In this document: one piece after another, positions 16,179 through 44,631 of the stretch
Position numbering within the stretch: the first letter of the stretch is position 1
How the letters are laid out: every line of letters begins with the position of its first letter
Assembly (NCBI RefSeq): GCF_041102575.1
Contig: NZ_JBGCUE010000006.1
Location: 62,001 to 126,000, forward strand
Direction: 5' to 3'
Source of the DNA: Tenuifilum sp. 4138str
Lineage (GTDB): Bacteria; Bacteroidota; Bacteroidia; Bacteroidales; Tenuifilaceae
DNA: 64,000 nucleotides
Program-made: the position numbers and the translations under genes
Notes under the pieces: generated by a model
Told to the model about the DNA's origin: nothing
What the model saw: the letters and a program-made list of their open reading frames with translations, nothing else
The model's database searches: none

Positions 16179-17447
16179 ATGAAATTTAATATTAGACTTT
16201 TCAAACTAGATACAAATTCAATATTTAAAAGTTTTTTTAGTGTATTTATATTTAATTTAATATCTGCATTTTTGGGTTTTATGTTAAATATTATACTTGC
16301 AAGATATTTCGATGTAGAAACATATGGTAATATTTCTTATTTTATTGCGTCTTTTCTTGTCTTATATACTATATTTGAGTTCGGTTTTGGAAATACTTTA
16401 GTGATTTTAAAAAGTAAATACGAAAATAATTTAAAAAATTATGTAAATGATACAATTAATACACATTTCCTAATATTTTCATTAATATTATTGATTTTCA
16501 CTGAATTGATAATTCAATTATTTGGGGAACAATTAAAATTACAAATTTATGAATCGAGAATACTAATAACATCTTCATTTATTTTTGCTTTATATAATTA
16601 TTTAATTTCTATTTATCAAGCTGATGGAAAATGGATGAGGTATAACTATTTTAATTTGTTAAGTAATTTTTTAAAATTTTTTATTTTCATAATAGTAATT
16701 TTTTTATATTCAAATATCTTTGATATTAATTTTACTTTCAAATTATTTACTAGAACATATTTAGTTTACACTTTAATATTATTTTTGGTTACACTTTATT
16801 TTATATATCCGCATATTCATTTTAAAGGAATAAAATTACATTTCCCATTATATAAAACGTTGATACCCCTTGGAATTACTAACTTAATTGTAATTTTAGC
16901 TATGAGAGTTGACAATTTTATTATACTTCATAAGTTAGACAATTATCAACTAGGAATTTATTCTGCAGCAAATTCATTTGCATTATTTTTTCCAATAATT
17001 ACAGGATCTCTAATGAAAGTTCTATTAAGAGAGTCTGCAAACCAAGGAATAAATTATTTAAAAAAAATAATTGATATCCAAAAAAAATATTTTATCCATT
17101 TAATAATATTTATTATTATTATAATTTTTACAAGCAAGTATTTAATTATATTTTTTTTTGGAAGTAAATATTTATATTCAATTCCAATTTTTCAAGTTTT
17201 AAGCATAGTTTATATTGGTGGTGTTTTTTTTACACCTCTAGAAAGTTATTTTTTTAGCAATCATCAAACATTAATAATGTTAATAAGAATATTACAATTA
17301 TTAATAATTATAATTTTTGGCTTCTTATTAATTGACTTGTTTGGATTAATTGGAATGGCAATAGCAATTGTTCTAAGCAGAATAATCGCATGGTTTTACT
17401 TTACAATAAAGTCAAAAAAAGTAATATTCAAATTATCAATTAAATGA
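16179..17447 (+). CDS. Wzx-type polysaccharide flippase (locus A)
   Basis: Polytopic inner-membrane protein (422 residues, about 12 predicted hydrophobic segments) of the MOP/PST flippase superfamily, which moves undecaprenyl-linked repeat units to the periplasmic side. The N-terminal layout (a first helix, then LARYFDVETYGNISYFI) and the late LIDLFGLIGMAIAIVLSRI segment are typical. Codon use is extremely AT-rich compared with the upstream sugar genes, suggesting recent acquisition together with the genes up to about 23.6 kb. Confidence 0.85.
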   Translation: MKFNIRLFKLDTNSIFKSFFSVFIFNLISAFLGFMLNIILARYFDVETYGNISYFIASFLVLYTIFEFGFGNTLVILKSKYENNLKNYVNDTINTHFLIFSLILLIFTELIIQLFGEQLKLQIYESRILITSSFIFALYNYLISIYQADGKWMRYNYFNLLSNFLKFFIFIIVIFLYSNIFDINFTFKLFTRTYLVYTLILFLVTLYFIYPHIHFKGIKLHFPLYKTLIPLGITNLIVILAMRVDNFIILHKLDNYQLGIYSAANSFALFFPIITGSLMKVLLRESANQGINYLKKIIDIQKKYFIHLIIFIIIIIFTSKYLIIFFFGSKYLYSIPIFQVLSIVYIGGVFFTPLESYFFSNHQTLIMLIRILQLLIIIIFGFLLIDLFGLIGMAIAIVLSRIIAWFYFTIKSKKVIFKLSIK

Positions 17448-17472
17448 ATTAATAATTGAATTCTTTAATTTG

Positions 17473-17505
17473 TTTTTGAAAGAATTGAAATAAATACTAA
17501 GTTTA
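17473..17505 (+). promoter_or_regulatory. possible promoter before the acetyltransferase
   Basis: TTTTTG ending at 17478 and TAAGTTTA at 17498-17505 are 19 bases apart; the -7 element differs from TAnnTTTG at one base. In such AT-rich DNA this can occur by chance. Confidence 0.3.
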
Positions 17506-17543
17506 GATATTAATATTTATAAACCAAATTAAATTATTTTAGA

Positions 17544-18056
17544 ATGAAAATATTACCAATTTTAAATAGTTATTTTGTAAGATATAAATTACAAAATAAT
17601 AATAAAGGTGTAGTAATTAAGCACGGATTTAATGCAGAGTTTATTGAAAATATAATTTTTAAAGGGACTTGTTATGTTGGACCAAATGCCTATTGGTCTG
17701 CTAAAGGAGGAATAGAAATAGGGAATAATGTAATTTTTGGACCTAGATCAATTATATGGACTTATAACCATAATTATATGTCTAGTGAATTTATACCATA
17801 CGGTGGAGAAGATATTTTAGGTAAAGTAATTATTGAAGACAATGTATGGATAGGTATAAATTCAATAATACTTCCAAATGTTACTGTTGGAGAGGGTGCA
17901 ATTATTGGTGCAAATACTGTTGTAACAAAAAACGTTCCTAAATTAGCAATTGTAGGTGGAAACCCTTTTCGAATTATAAAATATAGAGATAAAGATTTAT
18001 ACTATAAATTAAAATCAGAGAAAAAATTTTACCTTAATTATAAATATAATATTTAA
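17544..18056 (+). CDS. hexapeptide-repeat acetyltransferase
   Basis: 170-residue left-handed beta-helix acyltransferase of the WcaF/maltose-acetyltransferase type, likely O-acetylating a sugar of the locus-A polysaccharide. It shows IGNNVIFGPRSIIWTYNHN, with the His typical of the active site, then VIIEDNVWIGINSIILPNV, IIGANTVVTKNV and VGGNPFRII. The usual N-terminal extension of sugar O-acetyltransferases is short. A 504-bp gene-free gap follows it. Confidence 0.85.
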   Translation: MKILPILNSYFVRYKLQNNNKGVVIKHGFNAEFIENIIFKGTCYVGPNAYWSAKGGIEIGNNVIFGPRSIIWTYNHNYMSSEFIPYGGEDILGKVIIEDNVWIGINSIILPNVTVGEGAIIGANTVVTKNVPKLAIVGGNPFRIIKYRDKDLYYKLKSEKKFYLNYKYNI

Positions 18057-18560
18057 ATATAATAATATTATTTGAATATTATTGGATTTATGAAACGGAA
18101 AAATGAAATTTTACTTTAATATATTTAGGTTATAGTATTCTGTTTTACCATTTTACATAAGTTATTTATGAAATAGATATTATTAAACTATCATTTCTTT
18201 TATCATTAATAATCTACCTCCATGAATTGTTAACACCCACTTCCCAATTAACAAAAATTACAGTTGCATTACTCAATATTTAAAACCCTCAAACATCTTA
18301 AAAAGTACAACAATTATAAATGAACATTGATACTATTGGTTAACGCAAATATGATATTTGCATTCAATATTTCCATATAAAATAACGATTTTTTGACAAC
18401 CGAATGATATATATTAACATATATAAAAAATACTTATAGAAAAGTTTATTTACTTTTTTTTATTCTAAAAATTTACAAGAACAAAAATAATTTCAAATAA
18501 AATTAAATGGTTTTGCTAATTTTTATCATATTAATTACAACATTAAAATAAAAATAGGTT
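18057..18560. other. 504-bp AT-rich gap inside locus A
   Basis: No reading frame of note. The only structures I see are a perfect 7-bp inverted repeat GCAAATA/TATTTGC with a 3-base centre at 18345-18361 and scattered poly-A/T tracts. A short less AT-rich patch (about 18225-18300) resembles neither an IS end nor a known RNA. It may hold the promoter of the 18561 gene, but no TTTG/TAnnTTTG pair stands out. Confidence 0.5.
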
Positions 18561-19619
18561 ATGGAATTAATTTTATTAGGATATTATGGTTATAATAACT
18601 TCGGTGATGATTTGATGTTAAGTTGTTTAGTTAATGAATTAAAAGAAATATCAAATATTAATATACATGTTTTTGTTAGATTTAAAAAAAATTTTTTCTT
18701 GAATGAGAAAAATAACTGTAATGTAAATGTGCATTATTTTTATGAAAATTCAATGTTTAGAAATGTTATTAATTTTATAAAAATTTCATTTAAAAGTAAA
18801 TTTGTTATTTGGGGAGGAGGTACTTGTTTTTCTGACCAAGATGGTGTTGATATTAGATATTTTTTGCTTTCAAAATTTCTTTTATGTAAAATAGGGTATA
18901 TTGGTATTGGTGTTGGAAAAGTTACTGGTTTCAGAAAATTTAAAATGTTATTTATTCTTTCACTATCTTCATTAATAACAGTTAGAGATTCATTATCATA
19001 TAACACATTATATAAATTTAAGTTTCTTCGAAAAAAACTTATAAAAACAGCTGATATATCTTTCTTATATGATTATAATAAACTCAACCCTAAAAATGAA
19101 TATATTTTAATAAGTCTTCACAATTTATTGAGATACACTACCATTGAAAGAATATATTTAAGAAGATTAAGTTTAATTGATTTTATTTCAAATAACTACA
19201 ATAATGAAATTATATATATATTACCTTTAGCAGATGTAGACTATGAAGAAAACCTTACTTTCTATAATCATTTGCTTTCAAAGTTTAAAAATGTTTTTTT
19301 TCTTAATTTAAAAAATTATGAAGATAAAATTAAATATATTCAAAATGCAAAAATATATTATACAGAAAGACTCCATGGATATATTGTCTCTAAGTTATAT
19401 AACAATATTTTAACTATACCTTTAAATTATAGTAATAAATTTCAGCATTTTAGAAATGAGACTGGAATTAATTATGAAGGAATTGAATTAAATAATATTC
19501 AAAACTTAAGAAATTATGTTTTAAACAATAAAAATATTATTAATAATAATAAGATTAAGGAATTAAAAAATTTAGCTAAACAAAATATAATAGCACTAAA
19601 AAATGTCTTTAATAAATAA
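18561..19619 (+). CDS. polysaccharide pyruvyltransferase family protein
   Basis: 352-residue member of the PS_pyruv_trans family (CsaB/WcaK-like), whose members add pyruvate ketals to sugars or act as related transferases. Seen are the N-terminal GYYGYNNFGDDLML motif, FVIWGGGTCFSD near residue 80, IGIGVGKVTG, RDSLSYNTL, and the C-terminal YTERLHGYIVSKLY motif. The gene ends 17 bp inside the next frame (overlap 19603-19619), so the two are coupled. Actual pyruvylation is inferred from the family only. Confidence 0.82.
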   Translation: MELILLGYYGYNNFGDDLMLSCLVNELKEISNINIHVFVRFKKNFFLNEKNNCNVNVHYFYENSMFRNVINFIKISFKSKFVIWGGGTCFSDQDGVDIRYFLLSKFLLCKIGYIGIGVGKVTGFRKFKMLFILSLSSLITVRDSLSYNTLYKFKFLRKKLIKTADISFLYDYNKLNPKNEYILISLHNLLRYTTIERIYLRRLSLIDFISNNYNNEIIYILPLADVDYEENLTFYNHLLSKFKNVFFLNLKNYEDKIKYIQNAKIYYTERLHGYIVSKLYNNILTIPLNYSNKFQHFRNETGINYEGIELNNIQNLRNYVLNNKNIINNNKIKELKNLAKQNIIALKNVFNK

Positions 19620-20961
19620 ACAATATAAATACATAATTATTGTAATGATACAATTTTTATGTATGTTTTTTCAATTCAGCACTATTGGAATATTGCTTTT
19701 TCTATTAATTTGTTTATATGGCTTTTATGACATAATTGTTAAAAGGAATTTAAGTAATATTTTTTTATTTTTAATTTTAATTAGTTCATATCATTCAAAT
19801 TTTCCAAATATATATACAGTCAATTTTTTTAATATTTCAATTATATATTTTATGTTTATATTTTTTGCATTAACTACAATAAAAAATATTTTTTCAAGTA
19901 AATTTAATATTAATTATATACTACTAATATTACCCTTGTTATTATTATTACCATATCATCTAATTTATGGATTTATAAATAAATTTTCTAATTATGCTTA
20001 TATTACTGAATCTGTTTCTTTCCTTATATTCTATTTTTTTATCTTATATGCTCTCACTAATAATAAGGAAAAGAATAATGAAATTCTTGATTTAGTTAAG
20101 ACATACATAATAATTTATTATCCATTATTTGTAATCTTTTCAGGATTATTATTTCCCAGTAATTCTAATTTATTGTTTTATGACGAATTTTCAAAATTTC
20201 ATGCATTAGCATTTACTCCAATTATTATTTTCTCTAACTATAAATTAAATCATAAAGTTTTACTATTATTATTAAATATTTTATCTTTTTTTATAATTGC
20301 AATTACAGGGTATCTAAGTACATTAAATTTGATTTTAATTACAATAAGTTATTTTATAATTTTATTAAAACTAAATTTTAGAATTATAATATTTTCATTA
20401 GTTTTTTTTATTTTATTGTTTTTTTCTAGTTATAAACTACTTATTAAATATGGTAATGAAACTACAATTTGGAAAGTTAAACAAGTAGGACTTACAATTA
20501 CTAATTTTAATTTTCATAATATTAATCAAATTCCCCGTTCTCCAAAAGTAAGAATTTTAGAAATTATGAATTCTTACAATGAATTATCTGATAGTCCATT
20601 ATTAATTGTTATAGGAAAAGGTTTTGGTTCATATTTTACTGATACGAAATATTCTTTTAAAAACTATGGTGTAGATTTAAGTAAAGGAGATGTTTATTCA
20701 TTAGATCAAGTAAAACAATCAAAGTATTATATAGGTCATGGTTTTATATCGTATTCTCTTATTAAGTGGGGCTTTTCAGGAATTTTAATTATATCTTTAA
20801 TATCATTTTTAATATTTTTCATAAAAACTAAAGATTTTTTTTGGTTATCAATTTCTGTTCCACTATATGTATTAACTACTTTTGGTTATGGATTAAAAAA
20901 TTTCATTATGATTGGTTTTTTTATTGGAATATCATTAATATTAATAATTAAAAAATTATAA
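19603..20961 (+). CDS. Wzy-type O-antigen/capsule polymerase (locus A)
   Basis: 452-residue polytopic membrane protein with about 11-12 hydrophobic segments and one larger extracytoplasmic loop (about residues 285-375) containing KGFGSYF and GHGFISYSLIKWGFSG. The GHGF...G pattern matches the H-x-F...G signature that follows the big loop in Wzy polymerases. Sequence is otherwise unconserved, as usual for Wzy. It sits beside Wzx and glycosyltransferases, so it probably polymerises the locus-A repeat unit. Confidence 0.75.
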   Translation: MSLINKQYKYIIIVMIQFLCMFFQFSTIGILLFLLICLYGFYDIIVKRNLSNIFLFLILISSYHSNFPNIYTVNFFNISIIYFMFIFFALTTIKNIFSSKFNINYILLILPLLLLLPYHLIYGFINKFSNYAYITESVSFLIFYFFILYALTNNKEKNNEILDLVKTYIIIYYPLFVIFSGLLFPSNSNLLFYDEFSKFHALAFTPIIIFSNYKLNHKVLLLLLNILSFFIIAITGYLSTLNLILITISYFIILLKLNFRIIIFSLVFFILLFFSSYKLLIKYGNETTIWKVKQVGLTITNFNFHNINQIPRSPKVRILEIMNSYNELSDSPLLIVIGKGFGSYFTDTKYSFKNYGVDLSKGDVYSLDQVKQSKYYIGHGFISYSLIKWGFSGILIISLISFLIFFIKTKDFFWLSISVPLYVLTTFGYGLKNFIMIGFFIGISLILIIKKL

Positions 20962-20970
20962 ACTATTTTT

Positions 20971-21969
20971 ATGAAAATACTTGTTATAGATTTAATTACT
21001 CAAAAAGGACATATAAAATTTGTTCGAAATTATTTATCATTACTTAATTATTTAGGTGAGGTAAGATTTATTTCTTCTAAGGATTATATTAGTAAGATTG
21101 GATATAATAATTGTTATGTTATTTCTAATTGGTTTTTTAATTATAATAACAAATATGAATATGTAATCAAACAAGTATTATTAATTATATTATTATCTTT
21201 TAAAATTAATAAAAACTTTAAAAATTATAAAATTATCGTAACTGGTTTTGAAAATATTTCTTTTTTTATTGCATGGCGATTTATTTCTAATAAAACTTAT
21301 GTTGTAATACATAATAATCTTACACGAGGTATTTTGAGTATATACTCTTTTAAAAGAATTAAAAGTAATATAACTTTTATTGCACTTGAAAATTATATAA
21401 AAGAATTTATTGAGTCAAAATATAAAAAGAAAACTTATTTTATACCACACCCTATAGATATTATCAATATAAAAGAAAATCGAAATCTCTCAGATAATAT
21501 TATTTTTTGTCCAAGTGGAAGTTCAAACTTTGAAGAAATTGATAAATTTAAAAATACACTAAACAATAATTCTAAACTAATTTTAATTGCGAAATCAAAT
21601 ACTGAAATTATAAATAAAAATATTATTTTTAAGAAATATTTTGATGATTATGATACTATATTTGATAAATCAAAATTCATTTTTATACCATTTAAATATG
21701 ACTATAGAGTAAGTGGCGTTTTCTATGAGTCTATGAATTATAATAAAATTATTCTTACAACAAAAAATTCTGGACTCTTCATACATCAAATGAAAAAGTT
21801 ATACCCAAATTCTATTTTTTTTATCGAAAGTTTTGAAGATATTGAAGAAATAAATATTTCTAATGAATTAAAAGAAAAGGAATATAAAAAATTTATATCT
21901 TTGCATAATAATTTACAAATTTTTACTGAGTTCAAAAAAATGTTTTTAGAACAAAATGACAAAATTTAA
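20971..21969 (+). CDS. glycosyltransferase, GT-B fold (probable GT4-like)
   Basis: 332-residue cytoplasmic protein, no signal peptide. It has weak glycosyltransferase features: YVVIHNNLTRG in the N-terminal half, FIPHPIDI at the domain hinge, and FIPFKYDYRVSGVFYESM near residue 250, the place of the E-x7-E donor-binding region. It overlaps the next glycosyltransferase by 14 bases. Donor and acceptor cannot be predicted. Very AT-rich. Confidence 0.68.
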   Translation: MKILVIDLITQKGHIKFVRNYLSLLNYLGEVRFISSKDYISKIGYNNCYVISNWFFNYNNKYEYVIKQVLLIILLSFKINKNFKNYKIIVTGFENISFFIAWRFISNKTYVVIHNNLTRGILSIYSFKRIKSNITFIALENYIKEFIESKYKKKTYFIPHPIDIINIKENRNLSDNIIFCPSGSSNFEEIDKFKNTLNNNSKLILIAKSNTEIINKNIIFKKYFDDYDTIFDKSKFIFIPFKYDYRVSGVFYESMNYNKIILTTKNSGLFIHQMKKLYPNSIFFIESFEDIEEINISNELKEKEYKKFISLHNNLQIFTEFKKMFLEQNDKI

Positions 21970-23095
21970 GCTTATTTACATTGATCCTATGTCATATAAT
22001 AATTTAGGATTATATGATTTAAATTTGTTGCTTAACATTCAAGACCAATCTGAAATATATTTTATATGCTCAAATAAATTTGAATATAAAAACAAAATTT
22101 CTAAAGTACATATTATTGATCATTACAATTATCATAATAAACCTATTATAATTAAAGTTTTATCATATATTATTTCGTATTTTAAAACTCTAATAAAAGT
22201 TTTTTTAGTTCGACCTGATATTGTACATATTCAGTGGATTAAAATACCAAGTTTAGAAATTTTTGGATATAAATTAATTAAATTATTAAATAAAAAAATA
22301 TTTTTAATTTACACTGCTCATAATATTATTCCACATGACATAAAAAAAGTAAATATAAACTTATATAAAAAAATGTATTCAATTTTTGACTCTATAATTG
22401 TTCATTCGGAAACTACAAAATTAACTTTAAAAAATGAATTTTACATTTCTACAAATAAAATTAGTGTAATCAATCATGGTATTTTTGATCTTAGTCAAAC
22501 AATTACTGATATTTCAAAATTTAATTTTATATTTAATTCTTATAATATTAAATACAAATCTAATAATGAAATAATTTTTTCAATATTAGGTTCATTAAGT
22601 TATTATAAAGGTGTTGATTTAATTGTTGAAGCATGGAAAACCTCTAAATTACTATTCTTAAATAAGAATGTTAAATTAATAATAGCTGGAAAACCAACTT
22701 ATAAATTTGAAATATTAGATAATACAAATATATATTATGATTTAAATTTTTTATCTAATGAAGAATACTACGCATACTTAAAAATTACTGATATTCTTCT
22801 TTTACCATATAGGCAAATTTCTCAAAGCGGAGTACTTGCAGCAGCATTGTTTGAAAATGTACCTGTTATTGTTAGCAATTCAGGAGGCTTAAGAGATCCT
22901 TTTAAACTTGGTAATATAGGTTGGATAATTAATGATTTAAATGTTTCATCAGTAAGAGAAACTTTAGAAGAAGTTTTTTTAAATATAAATAAAGTCACTT
23001 TTGATTGGTCTAGAATAAATAAAGAATATTCTTGGGAAAAAATAGCTAAAGAAACTCTTAATGTATATAAAAACTTGAAGAATTTGCAAATATAA
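21956..23095 (+). CDS. glycosyltransferase family 4 protein
   Basis: 379-residue GT-B enzyme. VHIQWIKIPSLE and IYTAHNIIPHD lie in the N-terminal domain; ILGSLSYYKGVDLIVEAW begins the C-terminal GT4 domain; LLPYRQISQSGVLAAALFENVPVIVSNSGGLRD is the nucleotide-sugar-binding E-x7-E region in slightly variant form. Overlap with the previous gene and an 11-bp gap to the next place it in the locus-A operon. Confidence 0.85.
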   Translation: MTKFKLIYIDPMSYNNLGLYDLNLLLNIQDQSEIYFICSNKFEYKNKISKVHIIDHYNYHNKPIIIKVLSYIISYFKTLIKVFLVRPDIVHIQWIKIPSLEIFGYKLIKLLNKKIFLIYTAHNIIPHDIKKVNINLYKKMYSIFDSIIVHSETTKLTLKNEFYISTNKISVINHGIFDLSQTITDISKFNFIFNSYNIKYKSNNEIIFSILGSLSYYKGVDLIVEAWKTSKLLFLNKNVKLIIAGKPTYKFEILDNTNIYYDLNFLSNEEYYAYLKITDILLLPYRQISQSGVLAAALFENVPVIVSNSGGLRDPFKLGNIGWIINDLNVSSVRETLEEVFLNINKVTFDWSRINKEYSWEKIAKETLNVYKNLKNLQI

Positions 23096-24170: not shown

Positions 24171-24815
24171 ATGAGCTATAGTAACGAAAAAGATTTAAAA
24201 AAGATCATAATAAAAAAAAGAATTTTTGATTTTATTATTTCAATAATTGGTTTTATTATACTATTCCCTTTATTTATAATTTTGTACCTGATAATATTTA
24301 TTTTTTCAGGATATCCTGTGATTTTTAAGCAAATCAGGTTTGGTCAGTATGGTAAAAAATTTACTATATTTAAATTCCGAACAATGGTAGTAAGTAACGA
24401 GAAAAATTTTATTTCTACATCAAATGATAGACGAATTACAAAAGTTGGTGGAATACTTAGGAAACTCAAATTAGATGAAATACCAGAAGTATTAAATATA
24501 GTAAAAGGCGAAATGAGTTTAGTTGGTCCTAGGCCTGATATGCCTGAATATATAGAAAAAATTAATGAAAATGACAGAATAATTCTTAACTTAAAACCTG
24601 GGCTTACTGGTCCAGCAAGTTTAAAGTATATAAATGAGGAGGAAATATTAGCAAATGTTCCTGATCCCAAATGGTATAACGATAACATAATTTTTCCTGA
24701 CAAGGTAAGAATAAACAAGTTGTATATAGAACAATGGTCGTTTTTTCTTGACATAAAGATTATACTTCATACTATAATTCGTAAACCTTATAAAGAAAGT
24801 AATTATTTCAAATGA
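24171..24815 (+). CDS. PglC/WcaJ-type phosphoglycosyl transferase (initiating)
   Basis: Monotopic sugar-phosphate transferase that starts repeat-unit synthesis by moving a sugar-1-phosphate to undecaprenyl phosphate. The 214-residue length is that of the small PglC/EpsL type. It has one N-terminal membrane helix (about residues 17-45), then IRFGQYGKKFTIFKFRTM, KLDEIPEVLNIVKGEM and the SLVGPRPD motif. It overlaps the next gene by 4 bases (ATGA). The EpsN-like aminotransferase after it suggests the sugar may be a diamino-trideoxy type. Confidence 0.93.
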   Translation: MSYSNEKDLKKIIIKKRIFDFIISIIGFIILFPLFIILYLIIFIFSGYPVIFKQIRFGQYGKKFTIFKFRTMVVSNEKNFISTSNDRRITKVGGILRKLKLDEIPEVLNIVKGEMSLVGPRPDMPEYIEKINENDRIILNLKPGLTGPASLKYINEEEILANVPDPKWYNDNIIFPDKVRINKLYIEQWSFFLDIKIILHTIIRKPYKESNYFK

Positions 24816-25942
24816 ACACAAGAATCTGGCTTTCCTCTCCACATATGAGTGGAGGTGAGATTAAATACGTTAACGATGCCTTTGAAACCAATTGGGTTGC
24901 TCCGCTTGGCCCTAATGTCAATGCTTTTGAAAAAGAGTTATCGCATTATCTTAGTGTAAAGTACTGTGCTGCATTGGTTTCAGGAACAGCTGCCATACAT
25001 TTAGCCTTAATAAATCTTGGAGTTGGTCCGGGCGATGAGGTTATTTGCCAATCGTTTACCTTTTCGGCTACTGCAAACCCTATTGTTTATCAGGGTGCCA
25101 CACCAGTATTTGTTGATAGCGAGGATGAAACCTGGAATATTAATCCTGAACTTCTGGAAAAAGCAATTAGAGATAGGATAAACAAAGGGAAAAGGCCAAA
25201 GGCAATAGTAGTTGTTCATCTGTATGGTATGCCTGCAAAGATGGATGAAATTCTATCAATTGCCTCTAAGTACGATATTCCCGTTATTGAAGATGCAGCC
25301 GAAGCATTGGGAAGTAGGTATAAGGATAAATGTTGCGGTACATTTGGAGCAATGGGAATCCTTTCGTTTAATGGGAATAAAATAATTACAACTTCTGGCG
25401 GGGGTGCCTTGATTTCTAACAACCACGATTTTATTCATAAAGCCCGTTTCCTTGCCACTCAAGCGCGCGATAATGCACCGCATTACCAGCATTCACAAAT
25501 AGGGTACAATTACAGAATGAGTAATGTTGTTGCTGGCATAGGTCGTGGACAGCTAGAGGTTCTTGATTTAAGGGTTAAACAACGAAGAGAAAATAATAAA
25601 TTTTATAGAGATTTATTGGGCGAAGTAAAAGGAATAGCATTTCATACCGAATCATCCGATTCCTACTCAAACTACTGGTTAACCTCAATAATAATTGACC
25701 CCAAAATAACAGGGGTAACAAGGGAGGATCTGCGAAAAGGCCTAGAGGAAGATAACATTGAATCGCGTCCGTTATGGAAGCCAATGCATCTTCAGCCTGT
25801 TTTTTCAGGAGCCCCGGCATATACTAATGGTTTTTCAGAGTACGCATTTGAAAATGGGTTATGCTTGCCGTCTGGTTCAAACATGACCGATGAAGATAGG
25901 GATAGGATTGCTAACCAATTAAAAAAGATTTTAAAGTTTTAA
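24812..25942 (+). CDS. EpsN/PglE-type UDP-4-keto-sugar aminotransferase
   Basis: PLP-dependent DegT-family enzyme of 376 residues, closely resembling EpsN from its start (SSPHMSGGEIKYV, then TNWVAPLGPNVNAFE). GTAAIHLAL, EDAAEALGS and the Schiff-base lysine K190 in FNGNKIITTSGGG are all present. EpsN/PglE aminate the 4-keto-6-deoxy derivative of UDP-GlcNAc on the route to bacillosamine-type sugars. The matching 4,6-dehydratase and N-acetyltransferase are not in this window, so they must be elsewhere or the substrate differs. It is the last gene of locus A before the hairpin arrays. Confidence 0.87.
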   Translation: MNTRIWLSSPHMSGGEIKYVNDAFETNWVAPLGPNVNAFEKELSHYLSVKYCAALVSGTAAIHLALINLGVGPGDEVICQSFTFSATANPIVYQGATPVFVDSEDETWNINPELLEKAIRDRINKGKRPKAIVVVHLYGMPAKMDEILSIASKYDIPVIEDAAEALGSRYKDKCCGTFGAMGILSFNGNKIITTSGGGALISNNHDFIHKARFLATQARDNAPHYQHSQIGYNYRMSNVVAGIGRGQLEVLDLRVKQRRENNKFYRDLLGEVKGIAFHTESSDSYSNYWLTSIIIDPKITGVTREDLRKGLEEDNIESRPLWKPMHLQPVFSGAPAYTNGFSEYAFENGLCLPSGSNMTDEDRDRIANQLKKILKF

Positions 25943-26662
25943 TCAAATTTGAAATATAAATCTTAAAGAACATAGAAGGTTTAATTCATTTAATTATAAA
26001 TTTAACCTGCCCTTTCAGGGCGAGGATTTGAAAGATTCTCTTTACATTGGGCGTTGCCCAATGTTAGAGTGATTTAGGCTTTCAGCCCGAGATATCGTTA
26101 CCGTAATTAACAAAAGCAACGTAATGTTCCGCCCCGCAGGGGCAAGTCAGTCTAACCCAACGCATCGCGTTGGGAAATAGGCAATACCAAAATAATAATG
26201 CGCCCTGTAAGGGCAGTTAAATCTAACCCCACGCAACGCGTTGGGTAATGAACACCAAAAAAATATTGACACGCCCCGAAGGGGCAGGTTAGTTTAACCC
26301 AACGCAACGCGTTGGGAAATACGCAATACCAAAATAATAATGCGCCCTGTAAGGGCAAGTCAATCAAACCAAACGCACGGTAAGGGATATAGAATAACAG
26401 AAAAATAAATCGCCCCGTAAGGGCAGGTTGAGTTAACCCAATGCACCGCGTTGGGTAATGAACAATACCAAAATAATAATGCGCCCTGAAAGGACAAGTC
26501 AATCAAACCAAACGCATCGCGTAGGGTATTGAATAACTCAAAAAGGATCACCCCGAAGGGGTAACTCAGTCTAACCCAACGCATCGCGTTGGGTAATAAA
26601 GAATAAAAGAAATTAACGCGCCCTGTAAGGGCAGGTAAAAAAGTAACTAAATAGTTGATACA
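25943..26662. repeat. first hairpin (REP-like) array
   Basis: After a 60-bp spacer, a head element at 26004-26095 carries three inverted repeats (GCCCTTTCAGGGC, ATTGGGCGTTGCCCAAT, GGGCTTTCAGCCC-like). It is followed by about eight units with a period near 70 bp. Each unit pairs two hairpins: CGCCCYGNAAGGGC and AACCCAACGC(A)NCGCGTTGGG. The last hairpin ends 19 bases before the ATG of the transposase gene. The reading frames found in this stretch are by-products of the repeats. Confidence 0.92.
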
Positions 26663-27118
26663 ATGTCTCAATCCCTCACTAAAATCTATGTTCACATCGT
26701 TTTTCATATAAAATCAACAACGGTTCCAATAAGTTCAAATGATAAACCCCATCTATATTCCTATATCCGAACGGTACTCGCCGATCGAGAATCTATTCCT
26801 ATTGAAATTAATGGAACATCTGACCATATTCACATACTATGTTTGCTTTCTAAAAATATTGCCATATCAAAGCTTGTTGAAGATATTAAACGTCATAGCA
26901 GTCGATGGATTAAAACATTAGATGATAAATATTCGAGGTTTGCTTGGCAAAGAGGGTATGCTGCCTTTTCAGTAAGCCAATCGGTACTTGAAAAAACAAT
27001 AAATTACATAAAAAATTAGGAGGAACATCACAGGAAACGAAGTTATAAGGAAGAGGTAATGCTTTTCCTGAAAGAGTATGGAATGGAATATAACGAGGAT
27101 TATTTCTTTTCCGATTAA
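26663..27118 (+). pseudogene. REP-associated tyrosine transposase (RAYT), in-frame TAG
   Basis: Y1/IS200-type HUH transposase that handles REP hairpins as single-stranded DNA. The HUH motif is D54-H55-I56-H57, WQRGYAAFSVS follows, and the presumed nucleophile is Y115 in NYIKN. A TAG at 27017-27019 ends the frame at 118 residues, but the same frame continues for 32 codons (EEHHRKRSYKEEV..., ending FFSD) to TAA at 27116. Related proteins have a Gln where the TAG lies, four residues after Tyr, which corresponds to the metal-binding Gln of IS608 TnpA. CAG to TAG is a single change, so the gene is probably inactivated unless the codon is suppressed. Confidence 0.88.
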
Positions 27119-27832
27119 CCTGCCCTTACAGGGCGAGGATTTAAGTGTTTCTCTTTCCATTGGGCGTAGCCCAATGTTAGATTGAGTTGGGCTTTCAGCC
27201 CGAAAATTTGTAATTGCAGTTAACAACCAATGAAATATTACGCCCCGTAGGGGCAAGTCTACCTAACCCAATGCAATGCGTTGGGTGGTTAATGGAACCG
27301 AAATAATAATGCGCCCTGTAAGGGCAAGTCAATCTAACCCAACGCACAGCGTTGGGAATTAAAAATATCTATATACAACATCTCGCCCTGTAAGGGCAGG
27401 TAAATATAACCCAACGCAACGCATATGGAATAGAATAACAGAAAAAATAAAACGCCCCGTAGGGGCAAGTCTACCTAACCCCACGCAACGCGTTGGGTAA
27501 TGAACACCAAAAAAATATTGACACGCCCCGAAAGGGCAGGTTAGTTTAACCCAACGCAACGCGTTGGGAAATACGCAATACCAAAATAATAATGCGCCCT
27601 GTAAGGGCAAGTCAATCAAACCAAACGCACGGTATTGGATATAGAATAACAGAAAAATAAATCGCCCCGTAAGGGCAGGTCTTTTTAACCCAGTGCACCA
27701 CGTTGGGTTTCGTATAGCGGAACAAAGTAATCGCCCCGCAGGGGCAAGTCAATCTAACCCAACGCACAGCGTTGGGAAGTAAATAACCAAATACAACTTC
27801 TCGCCCTGTATGGGCAGGTAAAAAACAAAACA
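27119..27832. repeat. second hairpin (REP-like) array
   Basis: Starts with a second copy of the head element (about 27115-27205), directly after the transposase frame, and continues with about nine ~70-bp two-hairpin units. Bases 27476-27680 repeat 26224-26428 with only three mismatches in 205 bp. The final hairpin (CGCCCTGTATGGGC) ends about 18 bases before the ATG of the 1125-residue polymerase gene, so it would lie in that mRNA's leader. Confidence 0.92.
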
Positions 27833-30800
27833 ATGTTAAGGAAAATCATCACACACACTTTCACTATAACACTCCTATTATTCCTTATTAGGCTTGCTTT
27901 ACCCCAATACCTAAAATATCTTCTATTCCCCACTGTTGCCATTTTAGGTATTCTTACCCTTACTGAGTTCATAGTTACTAAACGTTGGCAGCAAATCACC
28001 TTAAAGAGTTTCAGAGTATTTATACCATTAATTCTTTCAGTACTTGCCTATTTTATAGCATTTGCTTTAACACCAAATCGCCCCGAAACACTGTTTAAGG
28101 ACACCTTTAATCTATTGGTTTTATCTGCATTTATTGTTTCTGCAATACTATTTAACTTTAAAACCGAAGAATTACACTATTCCCTGAAGCGTTTTAATAT
28201 TCTAGCGGTAATCCTCAGTTCCCATTTTGCCCTTGCCGGTATTTTAAAGCTTTACTTTATGCTTAAGGGGAATAAATGGGAATTTTTATCGGTTGAGGGT
28301 TTGGGATTCCCCCAGGGCACGTCGCTAAGCGTTGACGATAATTTTTTTACACTAGTTTGTGTTGTTGGGATTCTTATTGCTACCTTTTACCTTTTCAAGG
28401 AATTAAAGCGTTGGCAAAGTGTTCTGCTTCAGCTTGCCCTTTGGGTTTTAATAGTAAACATAATGCTGGCAACCTCGCGTCGTGGTTTAATTATTGCATC
28501 GATTTATATAATAGTTTTCATATTAACGTGGTTAACCTCGTGGTTTATTAGGAGGAAACCTTTAAAAAATTTTAGAGAGAATTCAATAATTTTCTTGCTA
28601 AGTTTTAGTTTATCCACATCATTTCTTGGTTATGCATTATTTGGAGTTAGCACGCTTAAGCGAAATGAGTGGCTGGCAAATTCCTCTTTCGATAATTATC
28701 AAACCATTGCGTATGTGAATTGGCTTACTATGTCGGGTAGGTCAATATTTCGGGGAGATATTACTTATGATGATGCTCAAAGGGAAAACTGGAACACCAG
28801 TTTCGACTCTCGATATCCCTATACTGGATGGGCAAATAGTAACTATCAATTAGTTGATAACCTCAACGATTTAGGTTTAGCAGCTGTGCCAGCTGATGCT
28901 AAGGGCGCCAGGGTAGGGGATTGGGTTCAACCTAGAATTTGGAATGGTAATGCATATTACATTTCAAAACTTTTTGAGGGTAGGGTTGAGCCCGGCAAAC
29001 GTTACCTGGCATCGGTTTACTGTTACGTTTCGCCCGATTTTGATGGCTCGTGGGTTCGGATGAGCAACAGTGGTAACTTGAAAGGGATAAACCACTGGTA
29101 CTACAATCTGAGTAGGAAAGGGACCTGGCAAAAACTTCAAACTTCATTTTATGCCGATAGCGGCGATTATAAATCGTATTTATATCTCTGTAAGGAGAAT
29201 GATTCCACGTTGAATAGCTTGAATGGTTATGTAATTTTTGCCTACCCGTCGGTAGAGCAAACTGAGTTTGACTCTAAAGAACCTATAACATGGGCTAACA
29301 GGCCATTTGAATTGGTAAAGGAATTGCCTGGCAAAGGCAGTAACCAACTTCCTGAGGGTACCAAAGCATTCATGCCTGTAAAACCCGACATAAGTTTCAG
29401 GGAAAAGGATAGCTTATGGGTTTATGGTGCGGATTTGTTTAGGTATAGGTTTCAAGATTCACTGAGAAACATACCTTCGTTATATGTTTATGCTTCACCC
29501 GATTTCAATGGCGATGAGGTTTACTTAAGTACTGGAGGTAAAATTTATGGTTTTACAAAGAACAATTACAATTTGGCTAAAAAGGGTCGTTGGCAAAGGT
29601 TATACCTCTCTTTCAATATGTTTGAGGGTGATAGTTGGGTTTACTTTGGATTCAAGAAGAAGGTTAATTCACCAGCAGACTCAATCAAAGGTTATGTTCT
29701 TTTTGCCTACCCCGAAGAGCGATTTTTAAAGTTTAACTCCAATGAACCTTTGACTTGGACAGGCTCAAACTTCAAACGCGTATATCCTTTAACCGGTAAA
29801 AATGTTGAGATTGTACCAAGGAATAGTGTAGGATTAAGGGTTGACAAGGAAACGCAGCATAGGGAAAGTAAAGATTTGGTTTACAATGTAAATCCTATTG
29901 GGAAAGTAAAATTTAAAAACAACCTTTATAGAGTTAAAACATCAATTTATGTTTATGTTTCTAATGATTTTAATGGGGAAAAAGTAAGAGTAGAAGGGGG
30001 GGCTAAGAAATTGGGTGGATATAGGGCTTCCTACTATGATTTAGAACGCAAAGAGACATGGCAAAAACTAACCATAAATAACTGGGGTGAAGCGGGTGGG
30101 GAGTACTATTCAACAACCTTTTTAGTATTACCCAAGGCAAATGATTTCAAAAAATTAAAAGGATATGTGATTTATGCACATCCTGAGTTTAATACATTCG
30201 AACATGACCCAAAGAATCCTGAAACCTATACTTCATCAACATATAGTAAAGAGTTCCCATTGATTGGTAATAATGCTGATATTGTTCCCGAAGGGGTAAT
30301 TGGGGCAAGATACGATAGGGCTACCGAGGGAAAACAGTGGAGGGACTTACATCATTCCACCACATTATTTTGGGGTGTAGAGGCTGAACCTGGCGATTCG
30401 GTATTCGCATCGGTTTACTGCTACGTATCACCAGAATTTAATGGTCAGGAAGCCAGGTTAGAGATAAGGGGGAAGGTATCAGGGCCTACAAACCAAAAGT
30501 ATAACTTGAATGCTAAAGGCGAGTGGGTATTCCTGCAAGCAAAGGGTATTGTAACCGAAAAGGGCTGGGTATATGGAGCCTACTTTTTTAGCCAGAAAGG
30601 GGTAACCGATTTTAATACACTTACCGGGCATATCACCTTTGCCTATCCCCAACTTATTGTCAAATCCAATAAAACATCGTTTATTCAAAGTGAGTACAAG
30701 ATAAATAGGGCAGGAATTTTGTTTGGCGATGCTTTGGTTAGTATGACTGATAGTACTTCCCATAACTTTGAGTTATCAATGCAAAACAACCGTTTTGCAG

Positions 30801-31210
30801 GGCCCCGGATTGATCGTTGGCGGTATGCATTTTACCTTTACTTTAACGAATACACGATTACTCAAAAGCTTTTTGGAGCTGGTTTTAACTATACCAAAAA
30901 GTTCGCACGAAAATTCCACCCTGATGAAATCAATAGAGATTTTGATTACCCTCATAACCCCTTCCTATCGGTTTTGCTTTACTCAGGTTTACTGGGGTTA
31001 ATAGTTTATCTATGGTTTTTTACTAAAACTTTATACTTGTACTATATCTATCGAAAGGAATACTGGTTATTTGGGTTGGTTTTCTTGGTAGTATTTTTCT
31101 ATTCATTTTTTAGTTCAAATTCACCATTTGAGCCCGCTTTCTTTGGTGTTATGGCTTTTCTTCCTTATCTAATTCATTATACTAAAAAATATAGGGAGGA
31201 GGTCAAATAG
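27833..31210 (+). CDS. Wzy/O-antigen-ligase-like protein with four tandem loop modules
   Basis: 1125-residue membrane protein. Residues 1-275 contain about seven hydrophobic segments (with ATSRRGLIIASIYIIVFILT); residues 1035-1120 contain the last segments and the ligase/polymerase signature HNPFLSVLLYSGLLGL. Between them lies a ~760-residue extracytoplasmic loop. In it, S-[VLI]-Y-x-Y-[VA]-S-x-[DE]-F-[ND]-G recurs at residues 394, 549, 704 and 860 (spacing 155, 155, 156). Each time it is followed by YNL/YDL-x-x-K/E-x-x-W and KGYV-[IL]-[FY]-A-[YH]-P. The modules look like beta-sandwich, carbohydrate-binding-type domains (CBM4/9-like), which is inference. Ordinary Wzy/WaaL proteins are 400-500 residues. 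It may polymerise or ligate glycan while holding the chain. Confidence 0.8.
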   Translation: MLRKIITHTFTITLLLFLIRLALPQYLKYLLFPTVAILGILTLTEFIVTKRWQQITLKSFRVFIPLILSVLAYFIAFALTPNRPETLFKDTFNLLVLSAFIVSAILFNFKTEELHYSLKRFNILAVILSSHFALAGILKLYFMLKGNKWEFLSVEGLGFPQGTSLSVDDNFFTLVCVVGILIATFYLFKELKRWQSVLLQLALWVLIVNIMLATSRRGLIIASIYIIVFILTWLTSWFIRRKPLKNFRENSIIFLLSFSLSTSFLGYALFGVSTLKRNEWLANSSFDNYQTIAYVNWLTMSGRSIFRGDITYDDAQRENWNTSFDSRYPYTGWANSNYQLVDNLNDLGLAAVPADAKGARVGDWVQPRIWNGNAYYISKLFEGRVEPGKRYLASVYCYVSPDFDGSWVRMSNSGNLKGINHWYYNLSRKGTWQKLQTSFYADSGDYKSYLYLCKENDSTLNSLNGYVIFAYPSVEQTEFDSKEPITWANRPFELVKELPGKGSNQLPEGTKAFMPVKPDISFREKDSLWVYGADLFRYRFQDSLRNIPSLYVYASPDFNGDEVYLSTGGKIYGFTKNNYNLAKKGRWQRLYLSFNMFEGDSWVYFGFKKKVNSPADSIKGYVLFAYPEERFLKFNSNEPLTWTGSNFKRVYPLTGKNVEIVPRNSVGLRVDKETQHRESKDLVYNVNPIGKVKFKNNLYRVKTSIYVYVSNDFNGEKVRVEGGAKKLGGYRASYYDLERKETWQKLTINNWGEAGGEYYSTTFLVLPKANDFKKLKGYVIYAHPEFNTFEHDPKNPETYTSSTYSKEFPLIGNNADIVPEGVIGARYDRATEGKQWRDLHHSTTLFWGVEAEPGDSVFASVYCYVSPEFNGQEARLEIRGKVSGPTNQKYNLNAKGEWVFLQAKGIVTEKGWVYGAYFFSQKGVTDFNTLTGHITFAYPQLIVKSNKTSFIQSEYKINRAGILFGDALVSMTDSTSHNFELSMQNNRFAGPRIDRWRYAFYLYFNEYTITQKLFGAGFNYTKKFARKFHPDEINRDFDYPHNPFLSVLLYSGLLGLIVYLWFFTKTLYLYYIYRKEYWLFGLVFLVVFFYSFFSSNSPFEPAFFGVMAFLPYLIHYTKKYREEVK

Positions 31211-31523: not shown

Positions 31524-32564
31524 ATGCCCAAAAAAGCTCTAATAACAGGAATAACCGGCCAGGATGGTTCCTACCTTGCAGAACTTTTACTCGAAAAAGG
31601 GTATGAGGTTCACGGCATTATACGCCGGGCATCAACATTTAATACCCACAGGATCGATCATCTGTACAAGGACAGGCATAATAAGGATGTTCGTATGTTC
31701 CTGCACTATGGCGATATGACCGATTCCAGCAACCTAAATCGTTTGCTCGAGAAGATTGAACCCGATGAGATTTATAATTTGGCTGCCCAAAGCCATGTAA
31801 AAGTTTCGTTTGAAGTTCCGGAATACACCGCTGAGGTTGACGCCATTGGAACCCTTCGTTTCCTCGACGCTATTAAGGATACAGGGTTAAAAACTAGATT
31901 CTATCAAGCTTCAACCAGCGAACTTTATGGTTTAGTACAGCAGGTGCCTCAAACCGAAAAAACACCCTTTTACCCTCGCAGCCCTTATGGTGTTGCAAAG
32001 CTTTACGCTTACTGGATAACCGTAAACTATCGCGAAGCGTACAATATTTTTGCCTGCAACGGAATTCTCTTTAACCATGAATCGCCACGGCGTGGAGAAA
32101 CCTTTGTTACCCGAAAAATTACTATGGCAGCGGCAAGAATTAAGGCAGGATTGCAGGAAAAACTTTTTCTAGGCAATCTGGATGCACGCCGCGACTGGGG
32201 GTACGCCCCTGAGTATGTGGAAGGAATGTGGCGAATGCTTCAGCATTCAAATCCTGAGGATTTTGTACTTGCAACCGGTAAAACGTATACTGTTCGGGAG
32301 TTTGCCACGCTTGCTTTTAATGAGTTAGGAATTGAACTTGAATGGAGCGGCAAAGGTGCTGATGAAAAAGGCATTGACAAAGCTACCGGCAAAGTTCTAG
32401 TTGAGATTGATCCTAACTATTTCCGTCCAACCGAGGTTGACCTATTGGTTGGCGATGCAACAAAAGCTAGGACTTTGCTGGGCTGGGAACCCCGGGTAGG
32501 AATTGAAGAGCTAGTTCGTATTATGGTTAGAGCTGATTGGGAAAGGGTTCAAACAATCTTATAA
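31524..32564 (+). CDS. gmd: GDP-mannose 4,6-dehydratase
   Basis: Converts GDP-mannose to GDP-4-keto-6-deoxymannose, the precursor of GDP-L-fucose and related sugars. The 346-residue protein has [21 protein letters not shown]-type NADP binding at the N-terminus (GxxGxxG), [15 protein letters not shown], the catalytic pair Y155/K159 in [12 protein letters not shown], and the [17 protein letters not shown] segment that is diagnostic for Gmd. It is followed by fcl with overlapping or very close coding sequence. Confidence 0.97.
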
Positions 32565-35034: not shown

Positions 35035-35916
35035 ATGAACCGTAAGATATTGATTATTGGAAAAAATAGTTTTATTGGTAAAGGCTACATAGAGTATAGC
35101 CGTTATTCTAGTATTGAAGAGGTGGATATTAAATCACTAGGTATTGAAGGGATAAATTTTGAGGGGGTTGATACTGTGCTTCATTTAGCGGCAATTGTGC
35201 ATCAAAGTGGTAGAATTAGCAAGCAAGAGTATATACGTATTAATTCGGATTTACCTGTTGAGGTTGCAATTAGGGCTCGCAAGGCAGGGGTTAAACAGTT
35301 TGTTTTCATTAGTACAACCAAGGTTTATGGCGATGAACAATTAATGAATATGGTATGTAGTGAACAAACAGAATGTAAGCCCAACGATTCATATGGATTA
35401 AGTAAGTTAATGGCCGAAGAGCGATTAATAGCTTTAGATACTCCTAGTTTTACCGTTAGCGTTATTCGTACACCTTTGGTTTATGGTAAAGGAGTAAAAG
35501 CAAATATGTTAAGTTTAATGAAACTGGTTAGGTACATACCATTTCTTCCTTTCAAGGGTGTAGATGCGAGCAGAAGTATCACATTTATTGGAAACTTAGC
35601 CGCATATATTGATAGAGTTATTGAAATACGGGCTAAGGGTATATTTCTAGCCCAGGATGAAAGGCCTGTCTCGGTGGAGGAGTTGGTTAACCTTATAGCA
35701 ATTGGTTTAAAACGTAAGGTTGTGATTTTTCCGCCAGGGAAATTTCTGATTTCTTTAATTAAAAAGTTTCTCCCTGCAATTTATTCGCGGTTATATGGGA
35801 GTTCAGAAGTTGATAATTCATTAACTATTAATGCATTAGGGCTAAATATTCCTTATTCCACAAGGGAAGGAATTGAAGTTATGACTAATTATTACAGATG
35901 TTTTGATGGAAAATAA
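35035..35916 (+). CDS. NAD-dependent epimerase/4-reductase-like SDR
   Basis: Extended SDR of about 293 residues with start at 35035 (MNRKILIIGKNSFIGKG); the open frame extends further upstream to 34918 but without conserved residues. The nucleotide motif is GKNSFIGKG, DTVLHLAAIVHQ is the adenine-side region, and Y120/K124 in YGLSKLMAE is the catalytic pair. Genes of this type directly before a WbpL-like transferase (the next gene) are typically 4-reductases giving UDP-QuiNAc or UDP-FucNAc (WbpV-like). The required 4,6-dehydratase is not present here. Confidence 0.8.
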   Translation: MNRKILIIGKNSFIGKGYIEYSRYSSIEEVDIKSLGIEGINFEGVDTVLHLAAIVHQSGRISKQEYIRINSDLPVEVAIRARKAGVKQFVFISTTKVYGDEQLMNMVCSEQTECKPNDSYGLSKLMAEERLIALDTPSFTVSVIRTPLVYGKGVKANMLSLMKLVRYIPFLPFKGVDASRSITFIGNLAAYIDRVIEIRAKGIFLAQDERPVSVEELVNLIAIGLKRKVVIFPPGKFLISLIKKFLPAIYSRLYGSSEVDNSLTINALGLNIPYSTREGIEVMTNYYRCFDGK

Positions 35917-43650: not shown

Positions 43651-44631
43651 TTATTCTTTTATTAGTTTAAATATGGTTAATCGGTATTGCCAAAGTAATG
43701 ATGATATGAACCCTAAAATGGCAAAGAATAAACCAATCCTCACAGCATACCTTGAGTAGGGGTTTTCGGCCTTGGATAGCGGGGTAAAATCCTGAACTAC
43801 TGTAATTGGCTCGCTGTTGATATTAAGGTCTTTTTCTAGTTTAAGTTTTTCCCTTTCTAGGGCTAACTTCTGATCATGGTATAATTTTCTGTCCTTTTCA
43901 TTAAGTACAACCATTTGATTTGATGAAGCCCTCTGCATTTGTGGTAGTTCAAAATACTCAACTTTTTGCAGGCTATCCAATTTCCGAATTTCATTTTCAA
44001 TGGTTTCAATAAGTATTTTATTCTGCCTAATACGTTCGGTGTTGTTATCCACAACAAATTTATTCTTGTAAATGTAATTTTTAATACCATCGCGTATCTG
44101 TGCAAATACGCCTTCATCGTATACCTCTAGGCGGATTACAAAGTAGTTATCGAGCCTTTTCACTAGGGTATCTTTGGGGTTATATAGCCTTTTATAATCG
44201 GTATAATCAGGAATACCGTCTTTATTAATATCGATGGTGTAAAATGCTTCAACCGATTTAATTTGTTGGGCACGAGAAATATCGATGTTAAGGTAGCTAG
44301 CTGCAATTGAGTAATTCCTTTGCTTAAACAAATCGTTAAGCAAATTTATGGAGCTAACAACATAGGTGTTGTTGATAGAGTTCGATATGGCTGTCATTTC
44401 CGAAGAGTAGTAGCGGCGAGTGTTTGAATAAAGCACATATGCAACAATTAGCCCTATAACTATAAAGGCAAGAATCCAAACTGTTTTACTAAGAATTAGC
44501 TTCAGAAAGTCTAATACTAACCGATAAACCCAAAGTATTCCCTTTTTGATACCCTGTCCCATTCGGTTGAAAAGTTCAAGCAGGTCAATTTCATCGGTTG
44601 TTTGCTGTCGTGTAATTTGATCGTTGTTCAT
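43651..44631 (-). CDS. Wzz-type chain-length determinant protein
   Basis: 326-residue polysaccharide co-polymerase. An N-terminal cytoplasmic stretch leads to TM1 (about residues 53-72); a coiled-coil-rich periplasmic domain includes KLDSLQKVEYFELPQMQ and EREKLKLEKDLN; TM2 (about 298-317) follows ENPYSRYAVR, in the Pro-containing position typical of Wzz. There is no C-terminal kinase domain, so it is the O-antigen type. It converges on locus B and is the only Wzz in the window, so it may serve more than one polymerase. Confidence 0.88.
   Translation of the reverse strand: MNNDQITRQQTTDEIDLLELFNRMGQGIKKGILWVYRLVLDFLKLILSKTVWILAFIVIGLIVAYVLYSNTRRYYSSEMTAISNSINNTYVVSSINLLNDLFKQRNYSIAASYLNIDISRAQQIKSVEAFYTIDINKDGIPDYTDYKRLYNPKDTLVKRLDNYFVIRLEVYDEGVFAQIRDGIKNYIYKNKFVVDNNTERIRQNKILIETIENEIRKLDSLQKVEYFELPQMQRASSNQMVVLNEKDRKLYHDQKLALEREKLKLEKDLNINSEPITVVQDFTPLSKAENPYSRYAVRIGLFFAILGFISSLLWQYRLTIFKLIKE

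Follow-up and report, generated by a model that had tools for sequence, protein, structure and literature searches.

A predicted Wzy_C-clan membrane glycan transferase of Tenuifilum with four tandem modules in its last extracytoplasmic loop

Introduction

What might a membrane glycan transferase do with four copies of one domain in the loop that is presumed to carry its catalytic residues? The question is raised by P0001, a predicted 1125-residue protein encoded in a 64,000-nucleotide stretch of the genome of Tenuifilum sp. 4138str (contig NZ_JBGCUE010000006.1, positions 62,001 to 126,000; hereafter the window). An earlier note, made from the sequence alone, had singled out this protein. Here we find that its architecture is real and conserved and generalises to a subfamily of one order, and we weigh what the modules may do. 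Relative genomes are labelled G and loci or proteins of relatives L, each with a number; coordinates of the parts of P0001 are collected in Table 1.

Results

Four tandem modules in a Wzy_C-like membrane protein

The P0001 frame is open from the ATG at 27833 to the stop codon at 31210. Its four modules, each 155-157 residues long, stand in tandem, all in the last extracytoplasmic loop, with pairwise identities of 29-37% and BLAST E-values of 6e-15 to 9e-27, far above chance. The earlier note had described the frame and four tandem modules of about 155 residues, and both were confirmed; the anchor S-x-Y-x-Y-[VA]-S-x-[DE]-F-[ND]-G falls exactly at the residues given there (394, 549, 704 and 860), and the strand said to close each copy was found as G-[YH]-x-x-x-A-[YH]-P. 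A hydropathy scan placed eleven helices, of which nine precede the loop and two follow it. With a twelfth helix set by hand at residues 1097-1115 for the topology count, the loop measures 773 residues, in agreement with the earlier figure of about 760. The charge of the protein broadly fits a loop on the outside, although the short outside loops also carry some lysine and arginine. Four modules are kept in each of three same-genus proteins (overall identity 54-62%), and an assembly artefact was rejected as the origin of the array, since three same-genus genomes carry the identical four-module layout.

The two ends of the protein had been read as Wzy_C-like, and this stands. Pfam Wzy_C (PF04932) matches whole P0001 in two stretches, at both ends (24.1 bits), and lies above the cut-off in L109, an insert-free subfamily member of 494 residues (48.7 bits, one stretch, profile positions 5-148). 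Excision of the loop, a check on the same idea, succeeded in part: a single collinear stretch (profile positions 1-149) replaced the two, but the score rose only from 24.1 to 25.6 bits, short of the curated cut-off of 31.7 bits. The L109 match is the stronger evidence for the Wzy_C relationship. Two of 18 subfamily relatives scanned, L104 and L109, score above the cut-off. Residues S215, R217 and G218 do not vary among five aligned cores, nor do the counterparts of R992, W996 and H1041, which are also invariant across nine C-terminal segments of the subfamily; on sequence grounds a catalytic role of H1041 is presumed. The motifs resemble the arginine plus loop-histidine pattern of a solved ligase as it is described in passages of PMC10920833. 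P0001 matched nothing in a sequence search of the PDB; a profile of the five aligned cores found no PDB chain at E ≤ 10, and the conventional Wzy_C protein of the window found no ligase there either.

Module 1 is predicted to be a jelly-roll of carbohydrate-binding type

Module 1, the sole module modelled, was predicted from 11 sequences (the four window modules and seven viral relatives) to be almost entirely beta, with a predicted local distance difference test (pLDDT) score of 88.8 and a predicted template modelling (pTM) score of 0.85. Foldseek against the PDB gave 14 matches at E ≤ 0.001 among the best 50 listed of 1464 at E ≤ 10. By title, 10 of these 14 are carbohydrate-binding domains, comprising five chains of carbohydrate-binding module (CBM) family CBM16, a CBM22, a porphyran CBM, a hyaluronan-binding module, a phloem lectin and the EclA sugar-binding domain. 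CBM4 (1k42, 1gui, 3p6b, 3k4z) and CBM61 come next, at E 0.001-0.003, CBM61 with the best template modelling (TM) scores, 0.56-0.59. The model and the fold search thus give module 1 a predicted jelly-roll fold of CBM type, which bears out for this module the independent, CBM-like beta-sandwich proposed in the earlier note. From the modelled fold we infer glycan binding by the window modules.

The sequence link is to CBM_4_9 (PF02018). No window module reaches its cut-off of 25.9 bits, module 1 coming closest (20.4 bits), and PF02018 had no match in the Tenuifilum genome itself at E ≤ 0.001. Profile-profile comparison against 25 CBM_4_9 domains drawn from the same order yielded P 2.3e-5 for the window modules and viral relatives together, 5e-4 for a set of 25 modules, 6e-4 for the seven viral relatives alone and 0.002 when only the four window modules were used. 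None of 60 column shuffles was as good, whether for the 25-module, the four-window-module or the window plus viral set. One of 26 extracted CBM_4_9 domains (L139) had been mis-extracted; it is part of the single-sequence profile discussed below and was omitted from the profile-profile comparison. The module plus viral profile also reached a canonical CBM_4_9 domain in L119 (G264:C33; E 1.5e-4, Pfam 45.9 bits), a further link between the two families. In the PDB, that combined profile matched no sequence, and the 25-module profile found one chain, at E 0.12.

Inserts of different number and type occupy one site in the subfamily

A profile of the C-terminal segment found the subfamily in at least 18 of 393 genomes of the order, its own included, and in at least 1 of 345 in a sample of the phylum. 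All order and phylum counts of genomes given here are lower bounds, part of the first-look candidates having been scored and the genomes having been sampled from larger groups. We inspected 20 of the 21 matched frames, leaving out a frame of 435 residues in G260. Window-type modules occur in four frames (three with four, one with one) and CBM_4_9-type domains in seven (five with one, two with two); the remainder comprises three frames with large inserts of another sort, three that lack an insert, and three that lack one and carry a C-terminal Bac_transf domain. In the same loop, Pfam CBM_4_9 lies above its cut-off in L100 and L101 (31.7 and 34.0 bits), scores too low to reach it in L102 and L103, and gives no match in L099 and L030; domains overlooked by Pfam were assigned by alignment, and the Pfam scan excludes L108.

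Flanks aligned in 17 proteins show that the inserts sit after the pre-insert element and ahead of the Arg/His segment. The distance from the SRR motif to the histidine is 135-168 residues with no insert, 323-333 with one CBM_4_9-type domain, 405-406 with one window-type module, 508-537 with two modules, 677-686 with three and 826 with four. A linear fit gave about 168 residues per module (r 0.99, n = 15 of the 17 proteins, module counts assigned by hand), with L105 (866 residues) and L106 (895 residues), whose inserts are of another kind, omitted. The survey of homologues that the earlier note had suggested therefore yields zero to four modules at the same place, and the array belongs, as that note had not recognised, to a subfamily whose inserts are exchangeable. 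When a tree is built from the C-terminal segment, L101, which has two CBM_4_9-type domains, stands beside the clade with one window-type module (support 93); because of this grouping, module type seems, as far as the sequences indicate, to have been swapped at a fixed site. Between orthologues, identity is 50-73% in the modules and 42-74% in the core, and 29-38% in the adjoining spacer.

Other members of the subfamily differ in other ways. L105:944-2884, L106:841-2859 and L107:507-2288 are insert-free and end in an initiating phosphoglycosyltransferase (Bac_transf, 173-182 bits), so that a single chain holds both the starting and the joining enzyme; close to the fusion gene, L105 and L106 also encode a long-loop paralogue. 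Large loop inserts of other sequence, with no CBM match, occur in L104, L105:5228-7825 and L106:3506-6190.

Window-type modules in relatives and in viral proteins

Among 60 relatives, the Tenuifilum genome included, 12 had a module match at E ≤ 0.001. G004 has a module fragment at the end of a contig, and G005, which is 78% complete, has no module. G022 and G006, of the same family, have three modules each; G020 and G009 have one each, G009 being cut by the contig start. The modules keep positional orthology across the genus, and in the module tree modules 2 and 3 of the three-module relatives group with genus modules 3 and 4 (supports 68-98). In G022, the first module looks like module 1 over its N-terminal half and like module 2 over its C-terminal half, a pattern that, judged from sequence, would be expected from the gain or loss of one unit.

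Across the order, the module profile matched in at least 10 of 393 genomes, its own included: two matches were rejected, and in the other eight genomes the matches lie in Wzy_C-type proteins. L064, a partial match in an outer-membrane-like frame (E 8e-4), and L065, a frame with three stops (E 6e-4), were both judged chance on inspection. A looser profile that includes the viral relatives matched in at least 10 of 295 genomes, two of them (G065 and G264) in other proteins. L118 was discarded as a transferase, as it reads as a phage-tail-like frame with nothing above a Pfam cut-off, and so was L119, a canonical CBM_4_9 protein. In the phylum sample, the module profile matched in at least 1 of 395 genomes, namely its own. 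A single C-terminal module past the last helix is present in L032, L060, L061, L062 and L063, whose Wzy_C scores are 49-71 bits.

Relatives of the window modules also occur in proteins of seven viral contigs (L066-L072). Laminin_G_3 is present in the same protein in four of six viral relatives scanned; a PHROG of virion structural proteins is matched by three of five, chiefly outside the module part; L066, the closest viral relative, has no Pfam match. P0001 as a whole protein found nothing in the viral contigs, nor did the module array in the PHROGs, and phage and plasmid record collections were likewise without a match; a second module scan of the viral contigs added no contig.

Genomic context

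In G001 and G002 the P0001 gene has as its immediate neighbours the orthologues of the window genes at 24812 (DegT aminotransferase) and 31524 (GDP-mannose dehydratase). It is thus inherited together with the locus downstream, and its description in the earlier note as standing alone between two complete loci was only partly right. The homologues in G006, G020 and G022 adjoin an orthologue of the gene at 35903, Glycos_transf_4 (WecA-like). A conventional Wzy_C frame of about 420-450 residues is found on the same contig, within about 10-15 kb, in the window, G001, G002, G006 and G009. Given the flanking orthologues shared among relatives, the P0001 gene is part of a polysaccharide locus that is conserved and has another Wzy_C enzyme at hand. 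In 20 of 25 relatives there is a Wzy_C frame of 477-510 residues, a candidate housekeeping ligase.

Guanine-plus-cytosine (GC) content is 38% in the P0001 gene, 40% in the gene at 24812, 45% at 31524, 35% at 36917 and 28% at 42327. The upstream Wzx/glycosyltransferase block (16179-23095) has 18-21% GC in the three genes sampled and is possibly foreign. Within it, 19603-20961 encodes a protein of 452 residues with nine helices by hydropathy and no Pfam match at E ≤ 0.001, which may be the Wzy of that block. A protein that we judge Wzz-like from its sequence, with no Pfam match, is encoded nearby at 43651-44631.

Short GC-rich palindromes of the TGCCC...GGGCG type lie at 25940-27830, around a Y1 transposase gene (PF01797) at 26663-27019; we take this array to be of the repetitive extragenic palindrome and associated transposase (REP/RAYT) type. 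P0001 had been placed behind a hairpin array, and the array is indeed there in the window, but it is local: it parts two genes that are 51 bp apart in G002 and about 0.4 kb apart in G001. It was therefore discarded as a functional part of the P0001 gene, the 51-bp gap in G002 having no room for it.

Table 1. Predicted parts of P0001 and their positions in the window
Feature	Position	Strand	Basis
P0001, predicted Wzy_C-clan membrane glycan transferase, 1125 residues, four in-loop modules	27833..31210	+	frame, Pfam, motif, topology
Transmembrane helices 1-9 (residues 1-275), SRRG (residues 215-218) included	27833..28657	+	hydropathy; motif positions
SRRG motif (residues 215-218), within the Wzy_C match	28475..28486	+	motif positions
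Pre-insert element (residues 276-321), ending ahead of the insertion point	28658..28795	+	flank alignment
Module 1 (residues 322-476), CBM-like jelly-roll as modelled, pLDDT 88.8	28796..29260	+	BLAST, model
Module 2 (residues 477-631)	29261..29725	+	BLAST between modules
Module 3 (residues 632-788)	29726..30196	+	BLAST between modules
Module 4 (residues 789-943)	30197..30661	+	BLAST between modules
Spacer, poorly conserved (residues 944-985; identity to three orthologues 29-38%)	30662..30787	+	
Presumed catalytic-loop part with R992xxxW996 and H1041, then last helices (residues 986-1125)	30788..31207	+	

Discussion

We propose, giving it an even chance, that P0001 is a locus-specific periplasmic polymerase of the Wzx/Wzy pathway whose modules hold the polymer or acceptor by the active site. 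Four jelly-roll, CBM-like modules, inserted in the catalytic loop between transmembrane helix 9 and the conserved Arg/His segment, would bind polymer or acceptor in the periplasm, on the face of the membrane at which lipid-linked units are joined. A chain bound beside the presumed catalytic histidine would be present at higher local concentration and be retained there; the array could raise this retention or set the extent of chain growth, and module number could tune binding through avidity. We infer a polymerase rather than a ligase because the distribution is sporadic and locus-bound (at least 18 of 393 order genomes), and the modules would affect its processivity and chain length.

Several results weigh against this proposal. 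P0001 stays under the Wzy_C cut-off, whole or loop-excised, and of the 18 relatives scanned 11 match below it and 5 have no match. The motifs are not universal: in a wider set of 23 rows, two (L110 and L111) lack the loop histidine and five the SRR-like motif. The other four of the 14 best fold matches of module 1 are two MAM domains, an arabinanase and Pgp3, and the TM-scores of all 14 are at most 0.55, so the fold fits other ligands too. At E ≤ 1, CBM_4_9 matches only 3 of the 25 modules (best E 7e-4, below the cut-off); when single sequences were searched with the CBM_4_9 profile, no window-type module beat the best letter shuffle; and hhalign of window-type against CBM_4_9-type modules gave no alignment (probability 0.3). 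Finally, the second Wzy_C gene in the locus argues for a ligase over a polymerase, and the polymerase role may be taken by that conventional Wzy_C frame.

It is possible, if doubtful, that P0001 is a WaaL-like ligase or another acceptor-transferase, with modules that recognise the finished polymer or an acceptor glycan before transfer. Pfam names Wzy_C as the O-antigen ligase family, the arginine and loop-histidine pattern is of the kind described for a ligase in passages of PMC10920833, and a separate conventional Wzy_C frame shares the contig in five genomes. A sporadic, locus-bound spread speaks against such a function, for which the Wzy_C frames of 477-510 residues in most relatives would be better housekeeping candidates. 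We consider it unlikely that the modules are structural or protein-docking beta-sandwiches, which would contact, for instance, a polysaccharide co-polymerase, an export protein or peptidoglycan, and not glycan binders. The MAM and Pgp3 structures among the 14 best PDB matches, the many prolines, glycines, tryptophans and phenylalanines among the most conserved module residues, which look structural, and the gene for a Wzz-like protein at 43651-44631 would suit docking; the predominance of carbohydrate-binding domains (10 of 14) in the same fold search, CBM_4_9 above the Pfam cut-off in the same loop of two relatives, and Laminin_G_3 beside the module in four of six viral relatives point to glycans instead. 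That the array is a length-neutral passenger, spread by unequal crossing-over in a tolerant loop and without catalytic function, is very improbable: module number and type do vary inside the subfamily, and L104, L105 and L106 have large inserts of other sequence, but the modules are conserved like the core (50-73% against 42-74%, with 29-38% in the spacer) and keep positional orthology across the genus.

Among known systems, P0001 is closest to the Wzy_C family (WaaL, GT121, and Wzy-type polymerases): it is polytopic, matches the profile at both ends, and shares SRRG, RxxxW and the loop histidine with its close relatives, in which they are conserved. It differs in its 773-residue loop with four modules, compared with an SRR-to-His distance of 168 residues in insert-free L109, and in scoring by itself below the Pfam cut-off. 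Module 1 resembles CBM16, CBM22 and CBM61 in its predicted jelly-roll fold and CBM_4_9 also by a weak sequence link; CBM_4_9 is above the cut-off at the same place in two relatives, but in no window module. Passages of PMC10920833 describe WadA, a bimodular GT121-GT25 ligase that likewise joins an extra globular domain to the O-antigen-ligase family, although that domain is a glycosyltransferase rather than a repeated beta-sandwich.

Extracytoplasmic CBMs are known from other membrane glycosyltransferases, the mycobacterial GT-C enzymes EmbC and AftD, which belong to another family; the CBM of EmbC is C-terminal, not a tandem array in the catalytic loop. Changes at two binding sites of EmbC abolished lipoarabinomannan synthesis when tested by complementation (passages of PMC3044687), and CBM mutants are reported to make less and shorter arabinan (passages of PMC11127046). 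The latter passages also cover ORF12 of C. youngae O1 (GT136), a GT-C enzyme of O-antigen assembly whose CBM binds the polymer and was dispensable under the conditions tested. Unlike the proposed action of P0001, GT136 adds side-chain sugars, and its CBM is C-terminal. By analogy, the modules of P0001 could prove essential, as in EmbC, or dispensable, as in ORF12.

The earlier note knew of no description of this architecture. For Wzy and WaaL enzymes this agrees with our literature search: among the matches listed, no title or abstract opening mentioned CBM modules in such enzymes, in a collection with few subscription papers and no preprints; terms were also checked in passages of PMC10920833, PMC12004945, PMC12419801 and PMC12220298. 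The note missed that other membrane GT-C enzymes are already known to carry CBMs. The enzyme clan and the fold type are familiar, and what is new is their combination and the natural series of copy numbers.

There is debate over how Wzy-type enzymes hold a chain and when they stop it, and co-polymerase models figure prominently in it (passages of PMC10030265). We suggest, tentatively and below our confidence in the polymerase itself, that a Bacteroidales polymerase subfamily has one loop 'socket' for zero to four glycan-binding modules, drawn from different families, that set polymer size, in which case the array would do inside the enzyme part of what separate co-polymerases do elsewhere. As relatives carry zero to four binding-like modules at one site, chain length is testable against module number, and window-type modules are candidate reagents for Bacteroidales surface glycans. 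If the proposal is true, the CBM principle of the mycobacterial GT-C enzymes would extend to Wzy/WaaL enzymes.

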